25,306 nt of DNA from a virus. The stretch's first letter is position 1. Each line of letters begins with the position of its first letter. Shown here piece by piece: positions 5,970 through 25,306 of the stretch. A program made the position numbers and the translations under genes. A model generated the notes under the pieces. That model did not search any database, was not told the DNA's origin, and saw only the letters and a program-made list of their open reading frames with translations. The stretch covers positions 1 through 25,306 of the IMG/VR virus record IMGVR_UViG_3300035698_002100; one strand, given 5' to 3'.

Positions 5970-6003
5970 GTTCTACACATAACCTGCCCGGGAGGGCCGT
6001 TCA

Positions 6004-6408: not shown

Positions 6409-6412
6409 CTCT

Positions 6413-8594: not shown

Positions 8595-8683
8595 ACGGCA
8601 ATGTGCGATTGTAGTTAATATAGTAAATATCGTGTCAGGCAGTTATACGGCCTGGAAAATGTAAACAATTTTAGGGGTTTAAT

Positions 8684-9016: not shown

Positions 9017-9026
9017 GGGGTAAATC

Positions 9027-9464: not shown

Positions 9465-9475
9465 GAAGTATTATT

Positions 9476-10945
9476 ATGCCGAGCAGCTATGATGTACACC
9501 TTGGACCTAATGTTGGGGGAGCCCTTCCGGGGCTTCCTGAGCGAAAAACTCATGTAATGTTGGATAACCCGCAAAAAGTAAACGTGTATTCAACAGCGTC
9601 AACGGCATTCTTAAACGAGATGCCTGGAACTGAGCGGTATATGCCTTATCAACATTCCACTTTAACCGGTGTTATGCGATTAAACTGTGAAGGCGAGCAT
9701 TATTTGATAATGGGTAAAGCAGGCACAAGTACCGAAGTTGCCTCTGTGTGGGAGTGGAAAGACGGACTGTTTACAAAAAAAATAGGTGCTACTGCAGCTC
9801 TTACGGGGCATAACTTTTTCAGTGTAACCAACATGATCCCGTTGGAAGATGGTTATTTTTTAATGGCATACAGTAATTATGTAGAGAGATACCGTTACGC
9901 TGTAGCCACAAACACGTTGCAATACGTGGATAGGCTTATCTTCTTTTCTGGTGTTGGTGAGCAGTTCCTTATGGACAATGGCAGTACCTTTTATTCTGTC
10001 TACACAAAAAGTACGAACTTAAATAATAATATTCAGTTTGTTGTTTACGACGATTACAGTTTCGACATTGTCATGTTTGGGTACATAGACAATAGTGATG
10101 GTATAGCTGCCATTGTGGCTTTGCGTTACGATTCTATGGGTGTTTATTTAGGCGCTAAAAAAGCCGCAGATGTTACAGAAGGTCCATACTCTACTGTATT
10201 CGATCTTGAGCTTTTCGCTCATAGAACTGGGGATCAAATTTACATTGCGTACATAAACAGGACATCTGCAGCAGCAAGTAGGGTTGGCTGTTGGCACACA
10301 GACACTGACTATTCTTTCCAACGCCAAATTGTGTATAGAACTAGTACGGGTGCTCCAACACAAGCGGAGTTTTTTGTTAATTCTGATTTTATATTTTTTG
10401 CTGTTGGTATAGCAGCCAACACTCACTTAGACGTGAACTCATCTTTCTTTATTAAGCTAGAGAAAGAAGGTGTTCAGCCTGTTTATCAGAACGGCGAAGG
10501 AACACCAGTAGATGGATTTTTTGGTGGAAGCCATACCGAAGCTGTGAACTTTTACCGTTACTGGGTTGGTCTCTCCCAATACGTGCCTTATGCCAATATT
10601 TATTTAACGACAGGAGCATCAAGTGTTAAGTCTACCCGCATTGAGTTAGGAGCCGGTGTAATAACAGGTAGGGACGCTGATCTAATTCCCAATGTGGCTA
10701 TAAACGACAATGGCCGTTACTTAGGCTGGTTTAATTTTGAAACGCAGTCTATTGGTGAAGGTTTTTTCAAAACGCAGTTTGTAGAACTAGCATACATGAA
10801 CGAAATTAGTAGTGTAACAGCGTCTGCCGGATTGAAATCTTTTGAAGGTCACTACCCATTGGGTAACGGTAAATGGCTTGTTAAGTACATTAAAAATGGT
10901 ATCACTACTTCTTTAGATTACTTCTCTATTTACGAGGAAGCCTAA
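9476..10945 (+). CDS. Large beta-rich protein, candidate receptor-binding protein
   Basis: A 489-residue protein with a very high content of Tyr, Phe and Asn and short alternating hydrophobic stretches, for example GQYLIMG-like and DGYFLMAYSNYVERY segments. The overall impression is a beta-propeller or beta-helix. It has no signal peptide and no clear catalytic motif. It is the largest gene of the AT-rich cassette, lies among tail genes, and its composition differs from all neighbours. This is what one expects of a receptor-binding or depolymerase-type tail protein that is swapped between phages. The Shine-Dalgarno AGGAAG lies about 11 bases upstream. The stop overlaps the next start as TAATG. 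Confidence 0.6.
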   Translation: MPSSYDVHLGPNVGGALPGLPERKTHVMLDNPQKVNVYSTASTAFLNEMPGTERYMPYQHSTLTGVMRLNCEGEHYLIMGKAGTSTEVASVWEWKDGLFTKKIGATAALTGHNFFSVTNMIPLEDGYFLMAYSNYVERYRYAVATNTLQYVDRLIFFSGVGEQFLMDNGSTFYSVYTKSTNLNNNIQFVVYDDYSFDIVMFGYIDNSDGIAAIVALRYDSMGVYLGAKKAADVTEGPYSTVFDLELFAHRTGDQIYIAYINRTSAAASRVGCWHTDTDYSFQRQIVYRTSTGAPTQAEFFVNSDFIFFAVGIAANTHLDVNSSFFIKLEKEGVQPVYQNGEGTPVDGFFGGSHTEAVNFYRYWVGLSQYVPYANIYLTTGASSVKSTRIELGAGVITGRDADLIPNVAINDNGRYLGWFNFETQSIGEGFFKTQFVELAYMNEISSVTASAGLKSFEGHYPLGNGKWLVKYIKNGITTSLDYFSIYEEA

Positions 10946-11490
10946 TGCAAAAGTTAGTTAATCTCAGTAGCTTGGTTGTTGAAGATGGTAACGTTCCTTT
11001 GTTTTTTCGTGGACTCGAAGAAGAGTCAATGGAAGACTTGTCGTGGACTGACCCTGCACTAGGCTATCAAGGTAAAGGCTTTTGGCCAACAGTGGATGAG
11101 TACCCTTCACTTGATGAAGGGTTTCGTTATGGTGTATCAGACACAGTGGTTGATGGCGATAATAAAAAAGTTATACAACGATGGACAGTGGAAGAGATAC
11201 CGCAAGACGAGTTACGGGAGTTGGAACTGGAAACTCAGGTAAGTAAACGGGAAAAAATGGTGGTCACAACGCGTCAAGCCAATCGAGCGCTGCTCCAAGC
11301 TGGCCTTCTAGCAGAAGTCCAGCCGGCCATAGACGCGCTATCAGAACCTGATCGGTCAATGGCAGATATTGAGTGGAATAAAAGCCAAGAGGTTGAGCGC
11401 AACCACCCATTCGTCTTGACGTTAGGCCAAGCTCTAGGGCTGACTGATGCGGAGCTAGATGATCTGTTTGTATTGGCGGCAACGCTATGA
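10945..11490 (+). CDS. Chimeric tail-associated protein (XkdW-like C-terminus)
   Basis: A 181-residue protein whose first 105 or so codons are AT-rich and whose last 75 or so are GC-rich, with the change near 11260. The C-terminal part (TTRQANRALLQAGLLAEV, then a helical stretch ending DDLFVLAATL) resembles the helical domain of small phage proteins found after tail-fibre genes, including XkdW-type proteins. The N-terminal part (WTDPALGYQGKGFWPTVDEY, then RWTVEEIPQDEL) resembles the beta part of similar fibre-associated proteins. It probably assists or caps the adhesin encoded just upstream, to which it is joined by TAATG. The mixed composition is strong evidence for a recombination junction inside the gene. 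Confidence 0.6.
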   Translation: MQKLVNLSSLVVEDGNVPLFFRGLEEESMEDLSWTDPALGYQGKGFWPTVDEYPSLDEGFRYGVSDTVVDGDNKKVIQRWTVEEIPQDELRELELETQVSKREKMVVTTRQANRALLQAGLLAEVQPAIDALSEPDRSMADIEWNKSQEVERNHPFVLTLGQALGLTDAELDDLFVLAATL

Positions 11491-11654
11491 CTTGTCGCGT
11501 CTAGCTTGCCTCGCGCAAAAATGATACCCGGCTGACTGCTCGCAATGGTGCGCTGCTGCACTGGGAATACCGGCTGCACGGATATACAGACCAGGCAACT
11601 TGCACGCGCTAGGCCTTTGGATTAAAGAGGCAAGCGGGAAATAGCAAGACAACC

Positions 11655-11664
11655 GTCGGGAGAC
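11655..11664 (+). promoter_or_regulatory. Shared leader/Shine-Dalgarno element GTCGGGAGAC
   Basis: Exact 10-mer also found at 16478-16487 and 19841-19850, each time 4-6 bases before an ATG that follows a non-coding gap. The preceding 164 bases (11491-11654) contain no convincing gene, only a 26-codon frame from 11545 and no strong hairpin. This is a possible remnant left by the cassette exchange and a possible promoter region. Confidence 0.5.
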
Positions 11665-11668
11665 GAAT

Positions 11669-12109
11669 ATGCTTGAGCAAAACGGTACGACCTATTTCAC
11701 TCGCAAATCGCTGCATTGCAAGCATTGCGGCATGGTTCGCCTGGCTCCTGGCTTTACTGAGGCCCTGCTGGATCTGCGCGTGACCTTTGGCGAAGGAATG
11801 AGCCTCTCATCTGCATGCCGATGCGCCGCGCATAACAAGGCGATTGGCGGTCACCCTCGGAGCCTGCACGTCTGCGACTACCCGCATCACCCGACCGATG
11901 GCTGCTGCGCCGTAGACGTCAGGTGGCGCAGCTGGAGTAATGAGAAGAAGCTGCGCTTTGCACGACTAGCCTGGAGCAAGGGCTGGGCAGTTGGCCTGCA
12001 TGACGGATTTTGCCACATTGACCGTCGAATTGCTGTCGGCATGGGCCAGGCGTGCTTCCTGTACGGGACATGGTCCTATCCGTTTGCTTCTGAAGAGGTG
12101 TCAGCATGA
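11669..12109 (+). CDS. M15-type peptidase, candidate endolysin or virion lysin
   Basis: A 146-residue protein with the signature of the peptidase M15 family, zinc enzymes that cut peptidoglycan stem peptides. The SSACRCAAHN segment carries the conserved Arg (R51). H67 lies in S-x-H, D83 in CAVDV, and H116 with D118 in CHID, giving the usual H, D, H zinc ligands. Relative to the typical S-x-H-x-x-G-x-A-x-D motif there is an insertion of about nine residues between H67 and D83. It contains nine cysteines, including a CKHC pair at 17-20, which is unusual. GTCGGGAGAC precedes the start. It overlaps the next tail gene by ATGA, so it may be a tail-borne lysin used at entry rather than, or as well as, the lysis endolysin. 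No holin is visible nearby. Confidence 0.7.
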   Translation: MLEQNGTTYFTRKSLHCKHCGMVRLAPGFTEALLDLRVTFGEGMSLSSACRCAAHNKAIGGHPRSLHVCDYPHHPTDGCCAVDVRWRSWSNEKKLRFARLAWSKGWAVGLHDGFCHIDRRIAVGMGQACFLYGTWSYPFASEEVSA

Positions 12110-13716
12110 AGATCGCTCTGGCGGCATTCCGCGGCGAGATGCCCATCCTCGACGGCAGGCTGCTCCCTGAGACGGCTGCGCAGATTGCCCGCAACGTGTA
12201 CCTGCGCAGAGGCACATTGAAGCCTGAGCGAGCTCCTGGCTCGTCTACTGGCATTCCATCGGTAGCATCGCCATCATCGCTGTACCGATACCCTGGCGGC
12301 AACAACGGGGAAGGCTTCTGGCTTGTCTGGGGTGGCGGAAAGCAAGTGCATGCAGTGAAGTCTGCCCTGGCTGACGACGCATTCAATCGCGTGTACTGGA
12401 CGGGAGACGGCACTCCGAAGATGGGGGGGATCGCTGATCTGACGCAAGGCGCTGGCCCTTACCCCGGGCGCAGCTATCGGCTTGGCGTCCCGGCCCCGGC
12501 ATCCGCTCCGTCCGTTGCACCGGCTCCCGACAGGACTGCAGAGGATACCCTGCCGCTGACCGCAGTCCAGACCTCGTATGTCGTTACCCTGATAAGCAAG
12601 TACGGCGAAGAAGGCCCGCCAAGCCTGCCCAGCACACAGATCAGCCGGTGGGATGGTGATGCAGCGGGCGGTGTGACAGTCTCATTGCCTGGCATCCCTG
12701 ACGGGTATAACGCAATTGTCAGCAAGCGCATCTACCGCTCCGAGCTGTCCGGCGTATTTCAGTTTGTAGAAACGGTATCGGCAGGGCAGGGCAGCTTCAA
12801 GGACCTCTATCCCAGCGACAGCCTTGGCATCCAGGTGCCCAGTATTGGCTGGGACATGCCGGATGACAGAATGATCGGCCTGACCGAAATGCCGAGCGGC
12901 TTCCTGGCTGGGTACTTCAAGAATACGTTGTGCTTCTCTGAGGCGTTTCGTCCGCACGCTTGGCCGGTTGACTACCAGATGGCTTTCAGTGATGACATCG
13001 TGGGCATTGCCGCCGTTGCTGGAGGACTGGTGGTAACCACGACCGGCAAGCCACACATGATCTCTGGCAGCTCACCTGCAGCCATGTCAGACATGCAGCT
13101 CGACAGCGACCAGCCGTGCCTGGCAATCAGATCATTGGTCGACATGGGGCAGTACGCAATCTATGCGTCACCAAACGGCCTGGTGGCTGCTGGGGGCGGC
13201 GAGGCGACGGTTATTACCCGCGGCATGATCAGCAAGGAGCAGTGGCTCGCTCTGGATCCGGCATCGATCCACGGGTATCGCCATGAAGGAAGGTACTTGG
13301 CTTTTTACGCGGGAGGCTGCTTTTCTTTCACTCCCGGCGAGGGGTTTGAGTTCTACGACATTTCCGCAGCGGCGGGGTATTACGATATTTCTCGCGATAA
13401 CCTGTATCTGATTCAGGGTAATAGCATCACCGTTTGGGGCGAGGGTAACCTGCTTGAGATGAGGTGGCGATCGAAGATCCATGAGCAGACCCTGGGAACT
13501 CCGTTCAGCTGCGCAAAGGTCAATGCAAAGGCTTACCCGGTAACCATGAGCATCTTTGTTGATGGGGATTTGCTATACACCCATGAAGCGCAGAGCAGAG
13601 CCTTGTTTAGGATACCCGTCACCGGCAACGACTCCCGAGAGTGGGAGATCGAAGTTCGTGGCACGAATGAGGTATCATCGGTACAGCTGGCATCTGCGCC
13701 AGTAGAGCTACTCTGA
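12106..13716 (+). CDS. Large beta-rich tail protein (nozzle/hub type)
   Basis: A 536-residue protein beginning MKIALAAFRGEMPILDGRLLPETAAQIARNVYLRRGTLKP. The pattern (G-x-x-P-x-x-x-x-x-LLP-x-x-A-Q-x-A-x-N, followed by a Gly/Thr-Leu-Pro element) is one I recognise from large podovirus tail proteins that build the tail tube tip, comparable in place to the tubular B or nozzle protein. The middle holds a fibronectin-like segment (SYVVTLISKYGEEGPPSLPS), and the second half has repeated short beta units that suggest a propeller. No catalytic motif was seen. It overlaps the M15 gene by ATGA and ends 16 bases before the next gene. Confidence 0.65.
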   Translation: MKIALAAFRGEMPILDGRLLPETAAQIARNVYLRRGTLKPERAPGSSTGIPSVASPSSLYRYPGGNNGEGFWLVWGGGKQVHAVKSALADDAFNRVYWTGDGTPKMGGIADLTQGAGPYPGRSYRLGVPAPASAPSVAPAPDRTAEDTLPLTAVQTSYVVTLISKYGEEGPPSLPSTQISRWDGDAAGGVTVSLPGIPDGYNAIVSKRIYRSELSGVFQFVETVSAGQGSFKDLYPSDSLGIQVPSIGWDMPDDRMIGLTEMPSGFLAGYFKNTLCFSEAFRPHAWPVDYQMAFSDDIVGIAAVAGGLVVTTTGKPHMISGSSPAAMSDMQLDSDQPCLAIRSLVDMGQYAIYASPNGLVAAGGGEATVITRGMISKEQWLALDPASIHGYRHEGRYLAFYAGGCFSFTPGEGFEFYDISAAAGYYDISRDNLYLIQGNSITVWGEGNLLEMRWRSKIHEQTLGTPFSCAKVNAKAYPVTMSIFVDGDLLYTHEAQSRALFRIPVTGNDSREWEIEVRGTNEVSSVQLASAPVELL

Positions 13717-13732
13717 CCTGCCGTGAGGCACT

Positions 13733-15622
13733 ATGAACAATAGACGCAAGACGCTCCCGCCGTTGTCTGGAAAGGTTCCGGTGGAGATGAGGCCCCTCCT
13801 TGAGGCGATCAAGGAGATCCTTGAAACAGGCGAAGGGGTCCGTGGGGATTCTCTCGACCAGAAGATCACCTATCGCGATCTGCTTGAATCTGGCCTCGCT
13901 CGACTGCGACTGCCTGGCAATGGTACGGCTGGAGGCCTGCTACCGAACGATCCCCTGCCAAATCTTGCTGTCCCGCCAAGGCCATCCGAGTTCTATGCAG
14001 AAGGCAGTTTTTACGGGGTTGTCACGCTGACCTGGGAGATAGCGCGAAAGGTTTATAGCAACCACAATTTCACCAACATCTATCGCAACGATGTCGACAA
14101 TTTTGCAAACGCCGTACTGATCGGGCGCGACGCCGGGTTTATGTACAACGACAAAACGCGAGACGACCTGGTGCCTGGGACCGAGGTCGGCTATTACTAT
14201 TGGATCACTTACACGTCCGACTCAGACGTGGAAGGCCCGCCAAACTCGCCTGATGGAACCTATGCCATCCCTCTGCCTGACACCGGGCTTCTTCTTGAGC
14301 AGCTAACCAGGGAGATAAATGAATCTCATCTGGCTATAGAGCTGGCAACCAAGATCGACACCACGGCGCTCCTGGCGTTTACCGTTGAGACCGGTCTGAC
14401 TAATGAAATTACGGTGCGCCAGGGGGCGAATGAGGCTCTGGCGCAGCAAATAACCACGGTGGCCGCCCGGGCTAATGAGACGGTTGCGGCTGTCAGCAGC
14501 GAGGCGACAGCGCGAGCCCAGGGAGATCAGGCTCTGGCGCAGCAAATAACCACGGTGGCCGCTCGGGTTAATGAGGCGGTTGCGGCCGTTAGCAGCGAAG
14601 CGACAGCGCGAGCCGAAGGAAATGAGGCTCTGGCCCAGCAAGTGACCACGGTTGCCACCCGCGTCGGAGAGAACGTGTCTGCTGTACAGCAGCAGCTTCA
14701 ATCCATTAACGGACTATCAGCCCAGTACACCGTAAAGCTAGATGTCAATGGTTACGGTAGCGGTTTCGGCCAATTCAATGACGGCGCGACCAGCCAGTTT
14801 GCTGTTCTTGCAGACAGGTTTTTTATTGCGCGGCCAGGCGCACCAAACTCGGCGATTACTCCGTTCATTGTCGACGGCGGCACGGTCTACATCAACAATG
14901 CCGTCATCAAGAATGCGTCAATCCAGCAGGGCAAGCTGGGGCCGATCAGCTTCGGCAAGATTGTCGATTCAGCCGGCAACCCGGTCACCACGGTGCAGGG
15001 AAAGCTGAGAGCGGAAGCGATCGATGTCGAGAATATGACTGTGGCTAATGCGCTGAACGCGGAAACCCTGAGCGTAAGCGCGACAATTACAGTAGGACAA
15101 ATTACTGGTGCAGGCTCTCTAGGGACAGTTGCGAGCCTAGTTAACGGCTGGGTCAAGCCAGGCCAAACCCTTATTGACGGAAACAAGATCTTCACAGGCG
15201 ATGCCTATGTGGACACGCTGCAAATAAGAGGCAACGCGGTAACTATACCCTTATTTGCAACTGCACCTCTTAACAGCACACCTTTAACTCTAAATCAATA
15301 TAAGAGAGTCACTAGCGTTTCTGGATTTTTCCCTTACCCTACTAATACAGTTTTCACTATAACTGTTTCTGCTCAAGCAAGTGGCTACGACACTAATGTT
15401 TTATTCCAAATTAGAGACGAGAATAACGCTTTAGTTGGAGCGGGAATGTCAAGCACAGGCGGATTTGGATGGATTACTCAGCATAGTTTCTCTTTTCAAT
15501 CTTTGCTAGGGCCTGGCAATAGAACTTTCCATCTTGATTTAGGCGCGAGTCAACCCAAGAACAATACCAGCAGTTGGTCTGTTATGGGCGCTTCGCTTAT
15601 TCTTCTTGGGGTACAAAGATAA
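13733..15622 (+). CDS. J-like tail-tip/fibre protein (DUF1983-like) with replaced C-terminus
   Basis: A 629-residue protein. Residues about 80-185 hold a fibronectin-type beta domain (VTLTWEI ... YYYWITYTSDSDVEGPPNSP). Residues about 230-330 form three 32-residue helical repeats, a predicted trimeric coiled coil. Next comes a region I recognise as DUF1983, the C-terminal part of lambda J-type tail-tip proteins: YTVKLDVNGYGSGFG, then ADRFFIARPG, then PFIVDGGTVYINNAVI. The last 130 or so residues, after base 15215, are encoded by AT-rich DNA and form a beta-rich tip rich in Ser, Thr and Asn, probably the receptor-binding end. GAGG precedes the start. Host specificity is the likely role. A J-type end on a podovirus-like tail is noteworthy. 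Confidence 0.75.
   Translation: MNNRRKTLPPLSGKVPVEMRPLLEAIKEILETGEGVRGDSLDQKITYRDLLESGLARLRLPGNGTAGGLLPNDPLPNLAVPPRPSEFYAEGSFYGVVTLTWEIARKVYSNHNFTNIYRNDVDNFANAVLIGRDAGFMYNDKTRDDLVPGTEVGYYYWITYTSDSDVEGPPNSPDGTYAIPLPDTGLLLEQLTREINESHLAIELATKIDTTALLAFTVETGLTNEITVRQGANEALAQQITTVAARANETVAAVSSEATARAQGDQALAQQITTVAARVNEAVAAVSSEATARAEGNEALAQQVTTVATRVGENVSAVQQQLQSINGLSAQYTVKLDVNGYGSGFGQFNDGATSQFAVLADRFFIARPGAPNSAITPFIVDGGTVYINNAVIKNASIQQGKLGPISFGKIVDSAGNPVTTVQGKLRAEAIDVENMTVANALNAETLSVSATITVGQITGAGSLGTVASLVNGWVKPGQTLIDGNKIFTGDAYVDTLQIRGNAVTIPLFATAPLNSTPLTLNQYKRVTSVSGFFPYPTNTVFTITVSAQASGYDTNVLFQIRDENNALVGAGMSSTGGFGWITQHSFSFQSLLGPGNRTFHLDLGASQPKNNTSSWSVMGASLILLGVQR
14428..14715. repeat. Three tandem 96-base repeats in tail-tip gene
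   Basis: Three adjacent units begin near 14428, 14524 and 14620. The first two share long identical runs (for example GGCTCTGGCGCAGCAAATAA at 14434 and at 14530), and the third is more diverged. Each encodes a 32-residue helix of the form EALAQQITTVAAR ... VAAVSSEATARA. The in-frame length and coiled-coil spacing suggest a stalk whose length can change by repeat gain or loss. Confidence 0.85.
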
Positions 15623-16000
15623 TGAATCATGTTATTTATAGCTCAAGTGGCGATATTATAAGAGTAATAAACTGTCCTGAATCAATGGTTTGGATGCAGG
15701 CCAAGGAAGGTGAGTTTCTACTAAGTGTAGAGGATTACGTTGACATTGACCGTAACTGGGTGAGCAGCGGCCGCTTAAAGAAAAAGGCTGAGTTCCCTTT
15801 CTTGCCAGACTTAATCGAGATTATTGCAAATCTTGAAGACGCGGCAATTATCCAAAATGTGCCTGCCGGTTGCGTTATTAACTGGTTTGATGGTTTGACA
15901 GAAATCTCAGACGGGAGTGATATTGAATTCTCAGTTGATCTGCCGGGCAAATACTGGCTAGTTATTTCATCCACGCCTTATTTGATAAAGGAGATAACAA
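15215..16000. other. Second AT-rich segment: fibre tip and following gene
   Basis: From about 15215 the DNA shifts to A/T-ending codons within the tail-tip gene, and the shift continues through the next gene to about 16000. This is the classic place of receptor-binding tip exchange, in which the tip and its small partner gene move together. The left boundary is inside the reading frame and the right one is near the TTG start of the following gene. No repeats flank it. Confidence 0.65.
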
Positions 16001-16023
16001 TTGAAGCGATCCCTGCAGCTTAA
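15622..16023 (+). CDS. Fibre-tip partner protein
   Basis: A 133-residue acidic protein. I place the start at 15622, where the ATG overlaps the tail-tip stop as TAATG. An in-frame ATG at 15574 lies deep inside the upstream gene and is less likely. The sequence is beta-rich at both ends (MNHVIYSSSGDIIRVI; YWLVISSTPYLIKEI), with a short helix around LPDLIEIIANLEDAAII. It is AT-rich like the tip it follows, so the two were probably acquired together. It may be an assembly chaperone or an extra tip subunit; the family is not recognised. Confidence 0.6.
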   Translation: MNHVIYSSSGDIIRVINCPESMVWMQAKEGEFLLSVEDYVDIDRNWVSSGRLKKKAEFPFLPDLIEIIANLEDAAIIQNVPAGCVINWFDGLTEISDGSDIEFSVDLPGKYWLVISSTPYLIKEITIEAIPAA

Positions 16024-16393
16024 CTCGGACAACCGACCTGCCAATGCAGAGCAAATCAAGCACTGGCGCGACACGCACGAACTATCTCCGGTGACTACCA
16101 CTGTGGGCACTTTTCATACAGACACCTTATCGGTTGAGCAGCGCATGAAAGGAGCCATTGAGCAATTTGATGACCTGCCAACACTGAACCCGGATGGAAC
16201 GCTGACGTGGAAATGCCCTGGTCCGGTTTACCATGACTTTACTAAAGAAGAGCTTCAGACCGGGTACACCGAACTGAAACACCTGGCGGCTATGCGTAGT
16301 GCAATTCTTCACGTTAAGGCTGAGGCATTTCAGCAGATGGCTATCCCGCCGACTCCGGCGCAGTTGGCTAACATTTCATTCTGGCTGCCATAG
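16001..16393 (+). CDS. Tail-fibre assembly-like protein (DUF4376-like), TTG start
   Basis: A 130-residue protein starting with TTG. The start is well supported: AAAGGAG (15987-15993) lies 7 bases upstream, and the next in-frame ATG is not until about 16146. The segment IKHWRDTHELSPVTTTVGTFHTDTLSVEQRM resembles DUF4376, a domain found in tail-fibre assembly proteins, followed by a short Trp-containing strand and a helix. The gene overlaps the previous one by 23 bases in another frame. The likely role is folding or attachment of the tail tip. Composition is closer to the phage average than in the preceding gene. Confidence 0.65.
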   Translation: MKRSLQLNSDNRPANAEQIKHWRDTHELSPVTTTVGTFHTDTLSVEQRMKGAIEQFDDLPTLNPDGTLTWKCPGPVYHDFTKEELQTGYTELKHLAAMRSAILHVKAEAFQQMAIPPTPAQLANISFWLP

Positions 16394-16493
16394 GAATCAC
16401 CCATACACCGATCGTCTGGATTGAAACCATGTTTTCAGTCGAGCGGTGGTAAGCTGAGCATGTCATCATGTCATCATGTCGGGAGACAGAACG
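16394..16493 (+). promoter_or_regulatory. Leader of internal-virion unit with TGTCATCA repeats
   Basis: Gap of 100 bases. TGTCATCA occurs twice in tandem plus a half copy (16461-16480), running into GTCGGGAGAC (16478-16487), which serves as ribosome site for the ATG at 16494. About 30 bases upstream of the 10-mer lies GGTAAGC (16447 onward); the leader at 19782-19854 has GGTAGC at nearly the same distance, and much of the sequence between can be aligned. A phage-specific promoter or translational control element is possible. Confidence 0.45.
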
Positions 16494-16955
16494 ATGCCAC
16501 GAAGTAACGAGTCCGAGTTTCTCACGGCGGTCCTGCAGGGCAATGGCGCTGCCATTGAATTCTGCCGCACCTTATTCAGAATCAGCCAGGCGCTTGACGA
16601 CCTGATTGATCGCGACACCCCCATCTCCGATGCAAGAATATACCAAGCATTCTGGGAGGCGCTGATCGAGCTGCCTGCCAACCCTTTCTATCGCCATCAC
16701 GAAATGACACTGCGCCCGCTTATGGCCAGCGCACTGCAGGACTGGTGGGATGCAACACGCCTCGAGCAAGCCGACAACGTACACGGCCGGACGCTGGCCT
16801 TTGTGCTGCGCGACATGCTGACGGGGGTAGTCGTTAGATGCGCCGGCCTGGTCGGTGGATTTGAGTGGATGCAAGAGAAATCCGTAGCCATCCGGCTGCA
16901 CTTCCATGAAGACACTTTCGGACAATATCTTGAAGACTTGGAGGTTCAGTTATGA
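16494..16955 (+). CDS. Helical protein opening the internal-virion module
   Basis: A 153-residue, almost entirely helical protein. I choose the ATG at 16494, with GGGAG 8 bases before it, rather than the in-frame ATG at 16476, which lies within the shared leader element. The segment FRISQALDDLIDRD contains DDLID, resembling the DDxxD metal site of type I isoprenoid synthases, but I see no second acidic motif. NPFYRHHE and a C-terminal CAGLVGGFEWM follow. I recall similar proteins beside internal virion genes in other phages, without a known function. Its stop overlaps the next start by ATGA. Confidence 0.65.
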   Translation: MPRSNESEFLTAVLQGNGAAIEFCRTLFRISQALDDLIDRDTPISDARIYQAFWEALIELPANPFYRHHEMTLRPLMASALQDWWDATRLEQADNVHGRTLAFVLRDMLTGVVVRCAGLVGGFEWMQEKSVAIRLHFHEDTFGQYLEDLEVQL

Positions 16956-17563
16956 GCGGCGGCGGCAAAAAAGGCGACAACAAAATCAAAGACACACCTG
17001 AGCAGCGCTATGCCGCTCAGGTGGCAGCGGAGAAGTGGAACTTTGCACAAGAGACACTCGCTCCTCTCGAAAACGAATACATGGCCCGCGTGGATGACAT
17101 GGGGTCAGAGGCCCGGTCCTCGTACATTCGCGGAGCTGCTAATCAGTCGACGATGGCTGGCCTGGGTAACGCTGAGGAGCAGATAGGCTCGCAGCTTGGG
17201 CAAGGGGGCGTTAACCCCAACAGCGGGCGGTGGCAGGGCACACAAGCTGACGCAGGTATGCAGCTCGCCACTCAAGGCGGCGAGACGATGGGCCGCGGAT
17301 TGTTCCAGCAGGATCAGGAGCAGATCCGGGGGATGCAAAACATCGTGGCTATTGGATCCGGGCAAGAGGGCCGGGCTCAGCAGGGGCTGAACGCTATTGC
17401 CGGCCAGTCTGCAATGGACGCGCGCGGGGAGTCTACCAACGCATTCAACAAGCGCTCGGCAAACCTCCAGCTTCTTGGCCAGGTCGCGGGCGCCGGAGTA
17501 AGCTATAAACTGAACAAAGGGTTCGAAGACAGTGTGTCAAAAGGCGACGCATCGATACCCTAA
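16952..17563 (+). CDS. Internal virion-type protein, Gly/Gln-rich
   Basis: A 203-residue protein that starts MSGGGKKGDNKIKDTPEQRYAAQ and is rich in Gly, Gln, Ala and Asn. An N-terminal helical region precedes a low-complexity middle with repeated GxG and Q-rich pieces, then a C-terminal helix (LLGQVAGAGVSYKLNKGF) that could insert in or lie on a membrane. The composition and place resemble small podovirus core or ejection proteins such as those near T7 gp7 and gp14, but there is no clear sequence match that I can name. The stop overlaps the ATG of a 29-codon frame as TAATG. Confidence 0.6.
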   Translation: MSGGGKKGDNKIKDTPEQRYAAQVAAEKWNFAQETLAPLENEYMARVDDMGSEARSSYIRGAANQSTMAGLGNAEEQIGSQLGQGGVNPNSGRWQGTQADAGMQLATQGGETMGRGLFQQDQEQIRGMQNIVAIGSGQEGRAQQGLNAIAGQSAMDARGESTNAFNKRSANLQLLGQVAGAGVSYKLNKGFEDSVSKGDASIP

Positions 17564-17652
17564 TGATGCAGGAATACGCAAAAGCAACCGGCAGCTTCGA
17601 TACGAATTACGGAACCGCTGCCCTGCTTAGCTATCAACTTGGGATGAAATAA
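17563..17652 (+). CDS. Possible 29-residue protein between virion genes
   Basis: This frame starts with ATGATG overlapping the upstream stop (TAATG) and ends 2 bases before the next ATG at 17655. The peptide starts MMQEYAKATGSF and ends ALLSYQLGMK. It exactly fills an otherwise empty gap and has the same coupling geometry as the other genes of the module. It could be a real small virion protein, or the remnant of a longer C-terminus of the previous protein. No function can be inferred. Confidence 0.4.
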   Translation: MMQEYAKATGSFDTNYGTAALLSYQLGMK

Positions 17653-17654
17653 TC

Positions 17655-18152
17655 ATGTCTCGGAATATGGGCAATATTGGCAATATCGGAAATATCGGCA
17701 ATATCAGTAACGCACAAGGCGGCTCAAGTGCCACAGCTATCAACCCAGAAGATGCTTTTCGCGGCGACCAGGGAGCCTCGACGCTGCTTGGCAAGCTATA
17801 CCGCGCCCAGTGGGAGGACTGGAAAAACCGCTTCTCGCCCTACATCGACAAGCTGGCAAACAAAGCATCCGATCCGGGATTCCTCGATGAGCAGTCGACC
17901 CAGGCCGCGGCTTCAGTGCGCTCGACCTACGACAACGTGCAGGCCGGAATGGAGACGCAGCGCCAAGGGTATGGCCTGAACCAGACCGCGGCGCAGCAAG
18001 GGTCGGAGCAGCGCAAGATGGCGCTCGGAAGGTCTGCCGACTCAAACGCAGCCTACAACAATGCGCGCATATCGGCCCGCGATCTACAGGATCAGGTGCT
18101 GGCTGGAGGCATGGGGCTGAACAACATTCCTCAAGCAGGGCAGGGTCAATAA
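17655..18152 (+). CDS. Internal virion-type protein with GNI repeats
   Basis: A 165-residue protein. The N-terminus is MSRNMGNIGNIGNIGNISN, a run of Gly-Asn-Ile triplets, followed by a Ser/Ala-rich stretch. The rest is helical, with LLGKLYRAQWEDWKNRF near residue 45 and then Gln-rich segments with periodic Ala (QGYGLNQTAAQQGSEQRKMAL). It resembles other small podovirus core proteins in length and composition. The Shine-Dalgarno sequence is weak (GGGATGA), so translation may depend on the preceding tiny frame. ATG 17667 is an alternative start. The stop overlaps the next start as TAATG. Confidence 0.6.
   Translation: MSRNMGNIGNIGNIGNISNAQGGSSATAINPEDAFRGDQGASTLLGKLYRAQWEDWKNRFSPYIDKLANKASDPGFLDEQSTQAAASVRSTYDNVQAGMETQRQGYGLNQTAAQQGSEQRKMALGRSADSNAAYNNARISARDLQDQVLAGGMGLNNIPQAGQGQ
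17670..17705. repeat. Four 9-base repeats encoding Gly-Asn-Ile
   Basis: Units GGCAATATT, GGCAATATC, GGAAATATC and GGCAATATC run in tandem and in frame. They are slippage-prone and could vary in number between isolates. They make a short low-complexity N-terminus. Confidence 0.85.
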
Positions 18153-18415
18153 TGTCATACGGACTTTTGGGCCTAAAAGGCAAAATGGAAGGCGAGGCGC
18201 TTCAAGGCCTGCAGGAGCTTTCCGGCCAGCAGCGAGAAAACAAGCGGCTTGAAGATCAGATGGATCAGGCGGACAAAGCGCGAAGACAACAGACAGGTAT
18301 GGCGCTTGGCGCTGCAGGCGGCGCCGCTATAGGCATGAAGGTGGGCGCTATTGGCGGGCCGATGGGTATGGCGGTTGGCGCTGCGGTCGGCTTCCTCGCT
18401 GGATCTTTGATGTAA
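18152..18415 (+). CDS. Small glycine-zipper protein, candidate channel former
   Basis: An 87-residue protein. The first half is a charged helix rich in Gln, Glu, Lys and Arg. The second half, from about residue 49, is a continuous Gly/Ala-rich hydrophobic stretch (ALGAAGGAAIGMKVGAIG, then PMGMAVGAAVGFLAGSLM) with Gly every three or four residues, the glycine-zipper pattern of membrane-spanning oligomers. Such proteins can form or line channels. In short-tailed phages, ejected proteins build a conduit across the cell envelope, so this is a good candidate for that role, by inference. The start overlaps the upstream stop as TAATG. Confidence 0.65.
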   Translation: MSYGLLGLKGKMEGEALQGLQELSGQQRENKRLEDQMDQADKARRQQTGMALGAAGGAAIGMKVGAIGGPMGMAVGAAVGFLAGSLM

Positions 18416-18425
18416 GGAGAATGAA

Positions 18426-19781
18426 ATGGCAGGATTAGACACTCGCGGCCTGGCCGACGGCTTCGCGCAAGGCTTCGGTATGATGGAAGCCTATGACCAG
18501 CGCAAGATCAACAACAAGCGTGCCGACAATCAAGAGGCCCGGCAGGCCAAGCAGGACGGCCGCATCGATCAGCAGTGGGAACAGCAGCAGGAAGACCGGA
18601 GTAAGAACGAGGCCCTAGAAAAGCTGTCTATGTTTTACCAGCAAGAAGCGTCCGGAATGACGCCGGAGTGGACTGCCGACCTTGATTCTGCGGCAGAGCT
18701 TCACCCTTATTTGCGGCTTGGATCGGTCTATGATCCGAGCACCGCAAAGTCTGTAGATATAGCAAAGCAGGTTGCCCTGGGCGACATCGATCCAAACTCG
18801 CCTGAAGCGCTAGAGGCCTTTAACCAGTTCTACAAGGTAGACATCGACAAGGGTGACGCTAAAGACCTTCAGGAAGGAGAGACGGCACGAAAAAGCATTA
18901 TTCAGACCTACCCGGGATCAATCGAAGGCACCTTGTCATTTGAGCTTGGCGTTGAGGTACTTGATGCGCAGGGCGCCGTCGTTCGCTCGTACACATCTCC
19001 TATGACAACGAATAACAGCGCAGGCGACGATGAAGTAAAACAGGTATCTATCGAGAAGATGGTTAATGGTGCCGCGGGCATGGCATCTCTTCAGCGCGTT
19101 ATACCTGAAGAAGTGAAGGCGCAGCGTAGAAAGTTCTTGATCGAGATCGGGGTGCTCAAGCCGCCATCCGAGCAGTTCGAGAGTGTTCAAGGCCCTGGCG
19201 GAAGCGTTCTTCAGCGCAACACGTTGACTGGCGAGATGAGCCAGGTAGTAGGGCGTGAGTCGTCTTATGGCCGCTCGGCCTTCGCCCCGGGAGCGCTTCA
19301 GAAAAAGATGGAGTACCTAAAGTCAGAGTTTCCCGGAGAGTCAAACCAGCAAATATACGAGCGGGCGGTCAACAATAGTGCCGAAGAGGAAGGGCTAACC
19401 ATAGAGGCCGGGCGCAAGGCATCCTCTATTGAGAGCATGATTCAGCGGGAGGAGGTTCGCCTTAATGATGCTATGGAGGAGGATAGACCTCCGATTGAGG
19501 AGGAAATCGCCAGACTTGAAGGCATCCTTAATGAAATAGTTTTCGGCCGTGCGCAGCCTACTCCAGAGCGGCCGCGCCCCGGCATGAACATCCCTGCCGT
19601 TCGGAGCGCTGTCGGTGCAGGCATGAGCATGGAGGGCAGAGGCCCGCTGCCAGTCAATCCTGCGCAGCAGCCACAACAAAGGCAACAGCCTGCGCCTCAA
19701 CAGTCAGCGACTCAGCAGTCAGCGCCGCAGAGTGAAGCGCAGATGACGGATGAGCAGCTTCGGAAGTATTTGGGGTATTAG
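18426..19781 (+). CDS. Internal virion protein, 451 residues
   Basis: A 451-residue acidic protein. It begins MAGLDTRGLADGFAQGFGMME and continues with a long, charged, coiled-coil-like helix (residues about 25-75). A mixed region follows, including VQGPGGSVLQRNTLTGEM. Another helical region (about 300-380) leads to a Pro/Gln-rich tail with QQPQQRQQPAPQQS. AAGGAG (18414-18419) lies 6 bases before the ATG at 18426; an ATG at 18421 reads into a stop after five codons. The long helices and Gln-rich linkers resemble podovirus core proteins that leave the head with the DNA. No enzyme motif was seen. Confidence 0.65.
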   Translation: MAGLDTRGLADGFAQGFGMMEAYDQRKINNKRADNQEARQAKQDGRIDQQWEQQQEDRSKNEALEKLSMFYQQEASGMTPEWTADLDSAAELHPYLRLGSVYDPSTAKSVDIAKQVALGDIDPNSPEALEAFNQFYKVDIDKGDAKDLQEGETARKSIIQTYPGSIEGTLSFELGVEVLDAQGAVVRSYTSPMTTNNSAGDDEVKQVSIEKMVNGAAGMASLQRVIPEEVKAQRRKFLIEIGVLKPPSEQFESVQGPGGSVLQRNTLTGEMSQVVGRESSYGRSAFAPGALQKKMEYLKSEFPGESNQQIYERAVNNSAEEEGLTIEAGRKASSIESMIQREEVRLNDAMEEDRPPIEEEIARLEGILNEIVFGRAQPTPERPRPGMNIPAVRSAVGAGMSMEGRGPLPVNPAQQPQQRQQPAPQQSATQQSAPQSEAQMTDEQLRKYLGY

Positions 19782-19854
19782 CCGATAGGCCCGACCGCAT
19801 CAGCAACCTCTGGTAGCATAGAACGTCTATCAACATCATTGTCGGGAGACACCG
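19782..19854 (+). promoter_or_regulatory. Leader of the giant protein gene
   Basis: Gap of 73 bases. GTCGGGAGAC (19841-19850) supplies the ribosome site 4 bases before the ATG. GGTAGCATAGAACGTC, starting at 19812 about 29 bases upstream of the 10-mer, lines up with GGTAAGCTGAGCATGTC in the leader of the gene at 16494. No sigma-70 boxes or terminator were seen. Confidence 0.45.
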
Positions 19855-22800
19855 ATGGCACAAGTGAAGGGACAGGCGAAGCCTTGGGCTGACGTCGCAA
19901 GCAGCGAGCAGTTTAAGGCACTGGCAGGCGAAGATCAGGAACGGGCTCGCCAGCTGTACTTCAGCGACGTCGTGCTGCCACGGGTGCCTCCTGGCATGGA
20001 GGATCGCGCTCGGACAATGTTCGATAGTGATACGGCGATCAAGCCGGTCGAGATTCAGCCGGTCGAGTCCCAGCAGTCGCCTCAGCAGCAGCCCCCAGCT
20101 CAGCCTATGGGCCTTGGCCGGCCAGATACAGGCGTGCGAGTGCCTGGAGATCAGCCGCAGGACATGGGCATACCCATTGCAATGCGTCCTGGTGCAAACA
20201 CGCCTCAGCAAGCCCCAGAGCCGGTCGTTCAGCGGCCCGGCCTCCAGTACCCCCGACAGCCTGGCAGCACAAACTGGGCAGATGCTTACCTTCCTGAAGG
20301 CGTAGATGCCTCGACGCTTGGCCAGAGTGACGCTCAGCAGGTGGTTGCCAGTGCAGCAGAGCGCAAGAATACGCCAACCATGCTCGAATACGAGGATGAG
20401 ATCACCAGCATGATGGAGGCCGGCAACGGGTTCATCGATCGCGAAACGGCAGAGAAGGTTATTGCCCGCAAGGTGGAGCCGTTCTCGGGGGCAGGAGGAG
20501 CCCTTGAGCGCGGCATACTGCAGACCTCCTACATGATTGGGGCTGCCAAGGAGACCGTCACCAGAAACCCAGAAGGAATGCAGGAAAACTTTGACAAGCT
20601 AAACGCGCTGGCGAAACACCCGGATGTGGAGCGCTTTACCAGGAGCGCCACTGATAAGGTTCTCGCTCTCGGAGGCAAGGAAGCAACACTTTACGAGACG
20701 CTCGGCGCCGTTGGTGAAGCGGTAGAAGAGGAGTTTGTTGGCTACGCCTTGATGGCAATTGAGCAATCGGCCAATACCGGCGTGGTTTATGGTACTGCAG
20801 CCGCCATGGCAACAGCGGGCGGAGTCGCTGGGGCGCCGTTTGGACCGCTAGTGGCGGCCGCTGGCACCACAATAGGCGGGATTGCTGGTATTTTTGCCGG
20901 CAGCATTATTCTGTCAATAGGGGAGAAAGCGCTAGCCGCAGCTGACCAGGCGAGGCTGGAGGGGCGAAGCCTGACAATCCAGGATGCAGAGATAGCTGAG
21001 ACTAAAGGCCTAAAGAAAGGGGCGACTATCGGCGGTGTTGAGACCCTTACCATGGCCCTCACAATGGGCCTGACCCGGTCTCTAATGCGGCCAGTGATCG
21101 GCGCGGTAGAGATAGCCACGGTTAGAGAGCTGCAAAGGCTTGGCGTCGACACGACCAGCGAGCTTGCGGTCTTTGCCGCAAGGAATCAGCCGGAGATCCT
21201 TCGGTCCGTGCTGATAGCGCAGTCAAAGGCTGTCGACGACGTCATGCTCACGGCTCGCCGTGGGTTTGGAGGCGCAGCAGCCATCTCTCTCGAGACTGGC
21301 AGCGAGGGCGTGGGCGAGTTTTCCGGCGAATGGATCGCAGAGGGCGCTTTCCCGGGATACCAGGACGCCGTTATGGAATCCGTTTCAAGTTTGTCTCAGT
21401 CGCTACTGCAGTCCGGATACTCAGTATCCTCTCAGGATGCGTCGACTATCGTTCGTGATGGCGGCACACTGGACCAGAAGGCGAACGATGTAGCGCAGAA
21501 AGCAACCCTTGAAGCCTTGCGGTCCCAGGGCATTGGCACAGATGCTGCCTCGGTCGCCCAGGCCAAGCAGGACCCTGCCGTATTTGCTGGAGTGCAGAAA
21601 GCGCAGCAGGAGGCGCTCAAGGCCGCAGGATTTAGGGGCAAGAGAGCGGCATCACTGATCTGGGCCGACACAACAGAACAAGGCCCGACCGTCGCCGACC
21701 AATACGAGCAGACTGTCAGCCTGGATGAAGTCAATGCTGCAGCGTCTGCCGGCGAGCCAGCGGGCGCGATGCCTAATACGAGCAATCCTTTCGGCCTGAC
21801 GCTGCCCGGCGAGGTGAAGGCAACCGGTGATGCTTACGGGGGCAAGGCTTTTGACTTGTCGCGCGAAGGTGGCACAGATTACGGGGTGAGTAATGCTAAC
21901 GCAGCCCCGGCGCAACCGGCTAAGGCAGACGTGCCCGGCAGGCCCGCATCGGAAACAGGTGTATACCGAGTCGCGCTAACAGATATTAACGTGGATCCCC
22001 AGTCCTACCAGTTCCGCACGGCCGTCAATGATGAAGGCTTGGACTCTCGCCTGGAATCCGTTGGCAAGTGGGACGACGTTCGCGCAGGCCTGGTGTTGCT
22101 GCATGAGCGCTCCGACGGCAGCCTATATGTCGCTGACGGACACCACCGGGTAGCCATGGCTAAGCGCCTTGGCCAGACCAGCATCAATACCATGATCATC
22201 AGCGAGAAGAATGGCGTTACTGTCGCCGGAGCTCGCCGCGAGGCAGCGCTCAACAACATCGCAAACGAGAACGCCACTGCTATCGATATAGCCAAGGTGT
22301 TCAGGGATAGCGAGGGGGACGTAAGAACGGTACGCGCGCGCGAGAATCTACCCAAGAACAAGAAAACAGACGACGCGGAAAACCTGGCTGCGCTAAATGA
22401 CGATGTATTCGGCTCCGTTGTAAACGAGCAGATGGACATCAAAGATGGCGCTGTCATCGGCCGAGTGTTCACTGATTCAGAACAACAGTCTGAGGCGGCG
22501 CGGATATTCCGTAACGTCAAGCCAGCAACCGAGTTTCAGCGTGAAGTCCTGGCAAACGAGATCCGCAACGCTGGATTTGCCAAGCAGCAATCAGATCAGG
22601 GTGGACTGTTTGGCGACGACAGCAGCTCGGTGGGTCTACTGAAGGATCGGCTGAAGGTGCTGGAGAAGCTGCGCCAGGCCTTAGCCAGCGACCGCTCACT
22701 ATTCCGGACACTGAACGATAATGCTGGACGGGCTACCGAGGCCGGGAATACGATCAGTAAGTCTCGAAACTCCGAGATTGCCGAGTCTTCTCAGCGCAAT

Positions 22801-25306
22801 ATCGACGCGCTTGCACGGGTTTCAACAGATCCCGTGCTGAACGCAATGGCTAATACTGCGGCGCAACGGGTGGCTAATGGCGATCCTATAGCCCAGGTTG
22901 TCCGCGACCTCAAAAAAGAGATCATTGAAAATGGAAAAGCCAAGGAAACCGCAGATGCTCCAGCCACTACAGGCAGCAAACCGGCTGCGAAGGGAGGGCA
23001 AGAGCTTCGCGGAGATATCCGAGTACCTGCGGACAACGCCGTCGGATCAGATGCTCAAGGACAACCAGGCCGCGCGGAAGAGTTCGACCTAGCCGCGCAG
23101 ACCGAGGAGTCTCTCGCTGCCGAGCAGGCTGTAATCGATGCCAAGGCAGAAGCTGAGGCCAAAACTGCCCGCAAGCTAGACGAAAAGGAAAAGGCTGACC
23201 GTGACTTGGGCAGCTTTGACCTGACCGGATCCTCGCGCAAAGCCGACACCGACGACGTAAGCGGGCAAGATCCGCTATTCAGCCTGAAGGATAATGACGT
23301 TGGCGAAAACGGTGACCTCACCAGCGCCGTAGATGACGTGTATGCGATGCTGCTGGACAGTGCCGCCAACAGCTTGCGCAGTGACAGAGTAAAGATCTCG
23401 GTCACAGCAAACGCCAGGAGCTTGCCTCAATCCGTGCAGGACGCCATTGCTGGATTCGCTGACAGGGCGGAAGGCTTCTTGCTGGACGGTGTTGCCTATC
23501 TGCTGACTGACAACGTCTCAACGCTCTACAGGGGCCTGGCTGTAATGATCCACGAAGTAGTGGGTCACCACGGTGTTTCTGGCTTCTTGGGAGACGGTGC
23601 TCGCGCGGCTTATCTAGCCATCTACAAGACAATCCCGGAAAACCTCCGCACTCAACTGGCGACAAGGTATGCAAGCCAGATCGAAGGCATGAGTGCTAAA
23701 GACGGCCAGGCCTTGATGGCTGAAGAGTACATTGCCAAGTGGTCTGAGTTTCAGATCAGCCTGACGGGCACTCGCCGGGCAGTCGCGGCCATTCGCTCTG
23801 CCATTCGCGGCAAGTTTGGTCCATCCTTTGCAAGCGCCTGGACCCTTAACGATGTCTTGTATCTCATTGACCAGGGCGCCAAGTACAACAATGCCAGTGG
23901 CGTGGTTACCGCTGCCCCGGCTGAGTCGGAAAGCAGCACCCGAGTCTTGTTCAGCCTGGAGGATGAGGCCGATCTATTCATTGGCCACAACATCAGCCAT
24001 GAAGGCCTGCGCCAGGCGATGAACCTGGGCGGTCTTGCTGCGCCTTCGCTGGGCATCAGCCGCACCACGACAGGCGGATTCGAGGGTTATGGCCAGATCA
24101 CTCTGCTGGCACCCAAGGACATTATTAACTCGCGCGGTGCCCGCACGTTCAACTCTGACGTGTACTCCCCTCGCCAGCCGCGAGCCGTGAACATTGTCGA
24201 CAAGAAAAAGTACGACGCGCTGATCGAGCGCATCAGTCCGTCGGGCCTTGGCCTGCCGGACATCGAAGAAATATACAGCTACGGCGCCGACGCATTGGCT
24301 CGCAGCGAAGCAATCAAGATGGCGTTCCTGGAAGAGCGAGGCATTGCGCCGAAGCCGAACAAAAGGAAGGTTGATCCAGAGGTTCGCCAGGCTGCGAAAA
24401 TGCCTGAAGCTGTCCGCTCTTACACCCTGCGCGAGACTCCGGCGTTTATTAAGCTGGCCCAGAAATACTATGAGAAGCTGCAGGCTGAGATGGCCGAGTC
24501 ATTCCCTGACCGCGCTGCCCGCATCGGGTTCCTCGACGAGAACGGCACAGTAAAGCCTGATTATCTCAATGGCCTGGCAATGGATGTCGAGACCTACGCA
24601 CGGGACGGCGGCATGGACGTAGGCAAGCTGCGCCAGGACATAGCCAAGAAGATCCGTACCAAGGCAGTCAGTGAGGCCTTTGAAGAATACACTCTCGCCA
24701 TTGCGAGCGACCTGATCGTCGACCAGAAGATCCAGGTCAGCCCGAACCGTCGCATCCCCTATACGATGAACAACGTCGTGGCTCAGATGATTAAAGATCT
24801 GCGCGGGGGGGAGGGGTTTAACTACGGCGCGGGCAATATCCGGGCTATGTTCGCCGCTGAGATGAAGAGTGTCGGCGCAGTACAGGGGCGCCGCAACGAG
24901 ATCGTATCTGCCGCTGATTTTCAAAAGGTAAAGACTGATGCGGAAAACCGGCTACTGGAAACCCTCGAGCAGATGAAGCCGTATTACCGCTTTGACGCGG
25001 GCGGATGGGGCTACATGGACGACGCCACTCGGGCAATCGGCGAAGGCCCGAAGGGCTGGGCCGAAGCGTTCAAGATGGACTCCCAGGCCCGGACGATCGT
25101 GCGCGACTATATCGATTACGTTAAGAACCTGCCGACCGAATACTTTGAAATCAAGATGCAGCGCAGCATGGACTTCAACGAGTTCGTTGCTGCTGTAGTA
25201 CCGAACGGCACGCCTGCCGCTCTGATTGACCGCCTGAAGAGCTACGGGATGGACGTCAAGAAGTACAACCCTGAGACGAAAGGTGCGCGCACTGAGGCGA
25301 TCGGCA
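19855..25306 (+). CDS. Giant polyvalent virion protein: ParB-like, zincin-like, LPD (3' end outside window)
   Basis: Continuous frame of at least 1817 residues, still open at the window edge; reading it codon by codon gave no stop. Residues 61-142 are a Pro/Gln-rich linker. Residues about 309-355 are a Gly/Ala-rich hydrophobic stretch that could cross a membrane. Residues about 700-830 resemble the ParB/sulfiredoxin-like fold, with D761-G-H-H-R765 at the phosphate-binding loop. A helical region containing GLFGDD follows, typical of DarB-type proteins. Residues about 1145-1310 look zincin-like: H1233-E-V-V-G-H1238 and E1290-E-Y-I-A. From about 1367 to the end lies a polyvalent-protein-associated region (FIGHNISHEGLRQAMNLGG, then DVYSPRQP). 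LFSL motifs at 1141-1144 and 1365-1368 bracket the zincin region. It is probably packaged and injected to protect phage DNA or act on the host. Activity is inferred. Confidence 0.8.
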   Translation, partial: MAQVKGQAKPWADVASSEQFKALAGEDQERARQLYFSDVVLPRVPPGMEDRARTMFDSDTAIKPVEIQPVESQQSPQQQPPAQPMGLGRPDTGVRVPGDQPQDMGIPIAMRPGANTPQQAPEPVVQRPGLQYPRQPGSTNWADAYLPEGVDASTLGQSDAQQVVASAAERKNTPTMLEYEDEITSMMEAGNGFIDRETAEKVIARKVEPFSGAGGALERGILQTSYMIGAAKETVTRNPEGMQENFDKLNALAKHPDVERFTRSATDKVLALGGKEATLYETLGAVGEAVEEEFVGYALMAIEQSANTGVVYGTAAAMATAGGVAGAPFGPLVAAAGTTIGGIAGIFAGSIILSIGEKALAAADQARLEGRSLTIQDAEIAETKGLKKGATIGGVETLTMALTMGLTRSLMRPVIGAVEIATVRELQRLGVDTTSELAVFAARNQPEILRSVLIAQSKAVDDVMLTARRGFGGAAAISLETGSEGVGEFSGEWIAEGAFPGYQDAVMESVSSLSQSLLQSGYSVSSQDASTIVRDGGTLDQKANDVAQKATLEALRSQGIGTDAASVAQAKQDPAVFAGVQKAQQEALKAAGFRGKRAASLIWADTTEQGPTVADQYEQTVSLDEVNAAASAGEPAGAMPNTSNPFGLTLPGEVKATGDAYGGKAFDLSREGGTDYGVSNANAAPAQPAKADVPGRPASETGVYRVALTDINVDPQSYQFRTAVNDEGLDSRLESVGKWDDVRAGLVLLHERSDGSLYVADGHHRVAMAKRLGQTSINTMIISEKNGVTVAGARREAALNNIANENATAIDIAKVFRDSEGDVRTVRARENLPKNKKTDDAENLAALNDDVFGSVVNEQMDIKDGAVIGRVFTDSEQQSEAARIFRNVKPATEFQREVLANEIRNAGFAKQQSDQGGLFGDDSSSVGLLKDRLKVLEKLRQALASDRSLFRTLNDNAGRATEAGNTISKSRNSEIAESSQRNIDALARVSTDPVLNAMANTAAQRVANGDPIAQVVRDLKKEIIENGKAKETADAPATTGSKPAAKGGQELRGDIRVPADNAVGSDAQGQPGRAEEFDLAAQTEESLAAEQAVIDAKAEAEAKTARKLDEKEKADRDLGSFDLTGSSRKADTDDVSGQDPLFSLKDNDVGENGDLTSAVDDVYAMLLDSAANSLRSDRVKISVTANARSLPQSVQDAIAGFADRAEGFLLDGVAYLLTDNVSTLYRGLAVMIHEVVGHHGVSGFLGDGARAAYLAIYKTIPENLRTQLATRYASQIEGMSAKDGQALMAEEYIAKWSEFQISLTGTRRAVAAIRSAIRGKFGPSFASAWTLNDVLYLIDQGAKYNNASGVVTAAPAESESSTRVLFSLEDEADLFIGHNISHEGLRQAMNLGGLAAPSLGISRTTTGGFEGYGQITLLAPKDIINSRGARTFNSDVYSPRQPRAVNIVDKKKYDALIERISPSGLGLPDIEEIYSYGADALARSEAIKMAFLEERGIAPKPNKRKVDPEVRQAAKMPEAVRSYTLRETPAFIKLAQKYYEKLQAEMAESFPDRAARIGFLDENGTVKPDYLNGLAMDVETYARDGGMDVGKLRQDIAKKIRTKAVSEAFEEYTLAIASDLIVDQKIQVSPNRRIPYTMNNVVAQMIKDLRGGEGFNYGAGNIRAMFAAEMKSVGAVQGRRNEIVSAADFQKVKTDAENRLLETLEQMKPYYRFDAGGWGYMDDATRAIGEGPKGWAEAFKMDSQARTIVRDYIDYVKNLPTEYFEIKMQRSMDFNEFVAAVVPNGTPAALIDRLKSYGMDVKKYNPETKGARTEAIG

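Follow-up and report, generated by a model that had tools for sequence, protein, structure and literature searches.

A probably virion-borne phage protein of the polyvalent class with linked ParB-like, zincin-like and PBECR5 modules

Introduction

Polyvalent proteins form a large class, predicted to act as virion-borne effectors and for the most part untested. The window analysed here, which is the entire virus record G000 (25,306 bases), is a fragment whose end cuts off the 3' part of a giant gene, and it raises the question of what kind of protein that gene encodes and whether the protein travels with the phage particle. A sequence-only reading had proposed a polyvalent protein with an uncharacterised combination of domains. 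We also find a polyvalent protein, with ParB, zincin and PBECR5 modules linked in a late virion context, and the novelty of the combination lies in the detail only, as the class and the combinatorics of its MPTase, ParB and PBECR modules were described in 2017 (Iyer et al., PMC5512222). New here are the clade, a clean cassette swap and a ParB module whose nucleotide site is altered; the functions are ones that we infer throughout.

Results

A giant open reading frame behind conserved virion genes

16952..17563, + strand: phrog_611 gene, first of the conserved set preceding the giant gene (PHROG match, synteny)
17655..18152, + strand: phrog_596 gene (PHROG match, syntenic)
18152..18415, + strand: phrog_594 gene, small glycine-rich protein (PHROG match, syntenic)
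18426..19781, + strand: gene immediately 5' of the giant gene, weak phrog_601 (PHROG match, syntenic)
19844..19848, + strand: RBS-like GGGAG, 6 nt 5' of the ATG of the giant ORF
19855..25305, + strand: giant polyvalent-protein ORF, open 3' end (ORF call)
19867..20097, + strand: N-terminal segment, residues 5-81, with 32% identity to residues 28-104 of the giant of locus L200 (E=1.8e-6)
20770..20922, + strand: Gly/Ala-rich hydrophobic, membrane-like stretch, residues ~306-356 (hydropathy)

The giant ORF begins with an ATG and runs for at least 1,817 codons (19855-25305, + strand) with no stop before the contig end, which agrees with the single frame of more than 1800 codons described earlier. 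The membrane-like glycine-rich stretch of that description is present as well, as a Gly/Ala-rich hydrophobic segment at residues ~306-356 with a Kyte-Doolittle peak of 1.69 at residues 335-356. The first ~690 residues have almost no homologues, and single-protein pattern searches with the N-terminal 662 residues and with the C-terminal two thirds of the protein returned no matches; a search of the same type with the tail gene at 12106 matched one short contig. Three modules were confirmed within the 1,817 residues, namely ParB-like, zincin-like and PBECR5, and these stand well above chance because they have tens to hundreds of homologues and because synteny is kept in 28/28 testable loci. Several unlike activities are thus predicted in one chain, as in other polyvalent proteins.

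Portal/head-tail adaptor, major head protein and tail fibre families are found further upstream in the window, and with the conserved synteny they place the gene in a virion module, as had been proposed, and in the late virion and packaging context typical of polyvalent proteins. The genes that directly precede the giant, previously described as small internal-virion genes, are indeed a conserved set with PHROG 611, 596 and 594 matches (601 being weak); all four families carry the label 'unknown function' in PHROGs, and it is synteny that suggests an internal-virion role. Seven loci have most of the virion genes of 4649-19781 in common with the window, with a giant gene at the equivalent place. 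Scanning with the phrog_611 protein yielded 36 loci, several of them on contigs that a module scan had also found, and in all 28 that had enough flank to test, a giant ORF lies 2.0-4.4 kb past phrog_611. These giants carry the zincin in at least 23 cases, the ParB module in at least 14 and PBECR5 in at least 1, all lower bounds since the flank cuts most of the giants. One relative (G001) has a syntenic giant of 3,181 aa, though the genome search did not detect it there.

Other features of the upstream region deserve mention. Between 9001 and 11000, spanning the genes of 9027-10945, G+C content drops to 40-44% against ~57% elsewhere, and this part was possibly acquired recently. A 146-aa ORF in the tail block (11669-12109) resembles, by eye, an endolysin of the D-Ala-D-Ala carboxypeptidase (M15-like) type, and a 502-aa Ala/Gly-rich repetitive protein is encoded between the head and tail genes (6413-7921).

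A ParB-like module with a replaced glutamate

21952..22923, + strand: ParB-like module, residues 700-1023, ParB-CTPase fold and helical middle domain (AlphaFold, Foldseek, hhalign)
22135..22149, + strand: DGHHR, residues 761-765, equivalent of the GxxR phosphate-binding motif of ParB (alignment)
22252..22257, + strand: Asn800-Asn801, equivalent of the Glu-Asn of ParB ENxxR (alignment)

The AlphaFold model of this module, built from 49 sequences, has a pLDDT of 89.7 and a pTM of 0.82. Foldseek against the PDB gave Noc (7nfu) as the best match (E=7e-5, probability 1.0), followed by ParB and KorB, with the match covering the N-terminal and middle domains of these proteins. With a target TM of about 0.35-0.58 the superpositions are modest, as is expected for a flexible two-domain protein. 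An hhalign comparison of the module with five chromosomal ParBs (E=7.6e-6, 197 columns) pairs ADGHHR with AGERR and NNIAN with ENIQR. The ParB/sulfiredoxin-like domain that had been recognised by its DGHHR is therefore well founded: the motif lies exactly at residues 761-765, model, fold search and profile comparison agree, and the structure search returned the ParB-like fold. It was this fold search that found the ParB relatives; a PDB sequence search with the profile of the module gave nothing useful, the TIGR00180 match is weak (E=1e-3), and Pfam gave a sub-threshold DUF1015 match at residues 752-776. The DdrB type of ParB (PF18763) was considered and rejected, as P1 DdrB matches that family at 2e-39 and the window protein does not match it.

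The glutamate of ENxxR is the hydrolytic residue in ParB. Among the 49 aligned sequences ADGH[QH]R is invariant (49/49), as is the second Asn (the position of Asn801), and the position of the catalytic glutamate holds Lys in 36, Asn in 8, Arg in 3 and Glu in 0, with Asn in the window protein. From the alignments, we regard the module as a poorly annotated clade in which the glutamate predicted to serve CTP hydrolysis is replaced. An alignment-based scan with the ParB region confirmed 128 IMG/VR loci, of which 80 were retrieved, so that at least 128 viral contigs encode this ParB-type module, whose nucleotide site is altered and which has no Pfam or NCBIfam match above cut-off.

The module also occurs in proteins of 750-1,500 aa on many other phage contigs. 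Two proteins, L055:8918-12280 (1,121 aa) and L071:8552-12388 (1,279 aa), join it to a C-terminal P-loop kinase domain of the Zeta-toxin type. Another carrier is HQ332136.1 (L004), named Dunaliella viridis virus SI2 after an algal host; this stated host is doubtful, because the record is classed in Caudoviricetes and encodes the phage module.

A zincin-like module and candidate processing sites

23275..23286, + strand: LFSL, residues 1141-1144, 5' of the zincin module, candidate processing site (motif, speculative)
23362..23910, + strand: zincin-like metallopeptidase module, residues 1170-1352 (motif and homology)
23551..23568, + strand: HEVVGH, residues 1233-1238, the HEXXXH zinc motif of polyvalent MPTases (motif)
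23725..23727, + strand: Glu1291 in EEYIA, candidate third zinc ligand (invariant in 12 sequences)
23947..23958, + strand: LFSL, residues 1365-1368, between zincin and PBECR5, candidate processing site (motif, speculative)

The H, E and H of HEXXXH are invariant across 12 zincin-like sequences, together with E1291 and E1298. HEXXXH is the form described for the metallopeptidases of polyvalent proteins, which are proposed to process the chain (Iyer et al. 2017, PMC5512222). The zincin-like domain noted earlier is thus supported by HEVVGH, by the invariant glutamates and by homology; on the structural side, confidence in the zincin part of the second AlphaFold model is low to middling (pLDDT block means of about 45-84), and a search of the PDB with it found no match. 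A joint zincin and PBECR5 alignment, in which the zincin-only rows were misaligned, was kept out of structure prediction.

The pattern [DN][IVL][RLA]FS[RLK], which was defined after inspection of the data, has 18 occurrences in 91 giants, where shuffled sequences give 0.6 and control proteins an expectation of 0.8, and it often sits at module ends. The conserved end of ART-like domains (NPDIRFSR) accounts for part of this excess. The two LFSL motifs that flank the zincin, at 1141 and 1365, may, speculatively, be processing sites.

The PBECR5 module

23956..25302, + strand: PBECR5 module, residues 1368-1816, predicted BECR-type RNase family (Pfam, alignment, model)
23986..23988, + strand: His1378, in the conserved HN motif, putative catalytic residue of PBECR5 (alignment)

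The third module had been overlooked earlier. Pfam PBECR5 (PF18814) matches residues 1368-1460 with E=5e-12 (46.5 bits, with a cut-off of 25), and the module consists of two halves with a long helical region between them. The AlphaFold model of residues 1371-1817 reaches a pLDDT near 95 and matches no solved structure (best E=0.42); hits to myoglobin (E>0.4) are meaningless and were set aside. Against viral predicted structures, some of the matches are proteins with polyvalent domains or proteins that bear the name nuclease. An RNase role is predicted from the name of the family. PBECR5 was located by alignment-based scan at 322 IMG/VR loci, of which 80 were retrieved.

Relatives and a cassette swap

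A tblastn search of 50,697 phage records gave six matches, each sharing one part of the protein: Ruegeria phage 45A6 and two Dunaliella virus SI2 records match in the ParB region, and Ab9, Carin1 and BF1-TP2 in the PBECR5 region. Alignment-based scans of bacterial assemblies added 18 loci. Giants of relatives carry ART-PolyVal, InPase and LPD1/3/5/22/37/38. One giant gene (L033:343-11702) is divided over three ORFs in different frames; we do not count this as natural splitting, a frameshift or assembly error being equally likely.

L032:11416-16213 and L040:11416-13648: cassette-swap breakpoints, sharp and within the gene

The DNA of these two phages is 94% identical through residue ~863 of the giant, then unrelated over 4.8 kb (L032) and 2.2 kb (L040), and then 95% identical again. 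The L032 cassette encodes ART-like and PBECR5 modules and that of L040 an InPase relative, so middle modules are exchanged between close relatives. This is a natural experiment, with near-identical flanking DNA around different middle cassettes at one fixed place, and such phages make effector function testable by the removal or exchange of modules.

Evidence for a place in the virion

JC1 gp69, which was described as most similar to Bcep22 gp75, is represented by 51 unique peptides in CsCl-purified virions (PMC9144972). Its kin BcepIL02 gp70 matches the zincin (2e-7) and the C-terminal module (7.5e-66) of the clade. JC1 gp69 is a distant homologue whose shared modules are those of the window protein's relatives and not the greater part of the window protein, and it is by this step that the window protein, too, may be placed in the virion.

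Discussion

We consider it quite probable that the gene encodes a virion-borne, self-processing phage polyvalent protein. Such a protein would be packed in the head, its hydrophobic N-terminal part perhaps serving to hold or insert it, and would be ejected either before the DNA or together with it. The zincin would cut the chain into separate effectors, either during assembly or after entry. The ParB-like part may then bind nucleotide as well as DNA, whether from the incoming genome or from the host, probably without CTP hydrolysis of the ParB type, and PBECR5 would cleave host RNA.

As an alternative, the protein might be mainly an ejection machine, in which the membrane-like N-terminus and the sheer size form a trans-envelope channel, comparable to T7 gp16 or the P22 ejection proteins, with the enzyme-like modules in a secondary role. 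We regard this as possible but the less likely reading. Short-tailed phages need an ejectosome (PMC11440229), the Gly-rich hydrophobic stretch and the position after putative internal virion genes would fit one, and the comparable giants of the podoviruses Carin1 and Ab9 adjoin genes named lysozyme/endolysin or internal virion protein. However, no transglycosylase was detected in the window protein, conservation is poor in the hydrophobic N-terminal part itself, and the free swapping of middle modules beside constant virion genes suits effectors better than a channel.

Another proposal, which we hold to be unlikely, is that the virus delivers a ParB-like clamp lacking the hydrolytic glutamate, which after loading stays closed on the entering DNA and shields or marks it against DNA-sensing defences of the host, the zincin freeing the clamp from the other effectors at entry.

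It is rather improbable that the protein is a DarB-type antirestriction protein that shields incoming DNA from type I restriction. Homologues in Bcep22-like phages are annotated as 'DarB-like antirestriction' and are present in virions, and the sequence-only reading had seen a DarB-like C-terminal region. That region could not be upheld, as the window ends inside the gene and nothing DarB-like is found in residues 1-1817. P1 DarB combines an N6-adenine methylase with an SNF2 helicase; neither was detected in the encoded 1,817 residues, though the unseen end could differ. P1 DarB also matched none of the four module profiles of the clade significantly, and PADLOC gave no defence-system match. 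The relatives end in an LPD38/phrog_616 module, which most likely forms the unseen end of this giant as well, being constant in the family. For this module 'DarB-like' is an inherited annotation, which travels with the C-terminal module in Bcep22-like phages and in phrog_10089, and P1 DarB lacks the module; the label is a likely source of the earlier impression.

That the module is a real ParB for plasmid-like prophage maintenance, fused by chance to virion modules, is very improbable: its fold includes the ParB middle domain, but neither the window protein nor any of the 49 aligned sequences keeps the ENxxR glutamate, the module sits within giant proteins of the virion block, and no ParA-like gene was noticed among the ORFs of the window, itself a fragment.

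Comparison with known systems

The ParB-like module resembles the CTPase clamps ParB, Noc and KorB in its N-terminal nucleotide-binding fold with a middle domain, in the GxxR equivalent and in the Asn of the nucleotide site. It differs from them in the replacement of both the hydrolytic Glu and the Arg of ENxxR and in being embedded in a phage giant, and no C-terminal dimerisation domain of ParB was identified in the module.

Among phage giants, those of the syntenic IMG/VR phages L032, L037, L038, L039 and L109 are closest, with the upstream gene order of the window, a ParB module 44-49% identical to that of the window and, in most, a zincin. PBECR5 is present in L032 only, where the order is ParB-PBECR5-zincin, whereas the window has ParB-zincin-PBECR5. 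Cobetia phage Carin1 gp32 and Acinetobacter phage Ab9 gp16 also have PBECR5 in a giant gene of the internal-virion block, but they have no ParB module of the window clade, and their zincin-like motifs take the HEXXH form. BcepIL02 gp70 and JC1 gp69 share the zincin and C-terminal module with relatives of the window protein and are encoded by the last gene of the virion block. BcepIL02 gp70 (4,667 aa) has no detected ParB or PBECR5 module of the window type, and the reported domain matches of JC1 gp69 include lytic-transglycosylase-like and HepA-helicase-like regions (PMC9144972).

Compared with the polyvalent proteins of Iyer et al. (2017), the window protein has a ParB module that falls outside the DdrB family and comes with the ParB middle domain, ~690 N-terminal residues nearly without homologues and a C-terminus that lies beyond the window. 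It shares with them the chain of unlike modules, the HEXXXH zincin, the ParB/Srx and PBECR modules, the late-gene context and the shuffling of domains.
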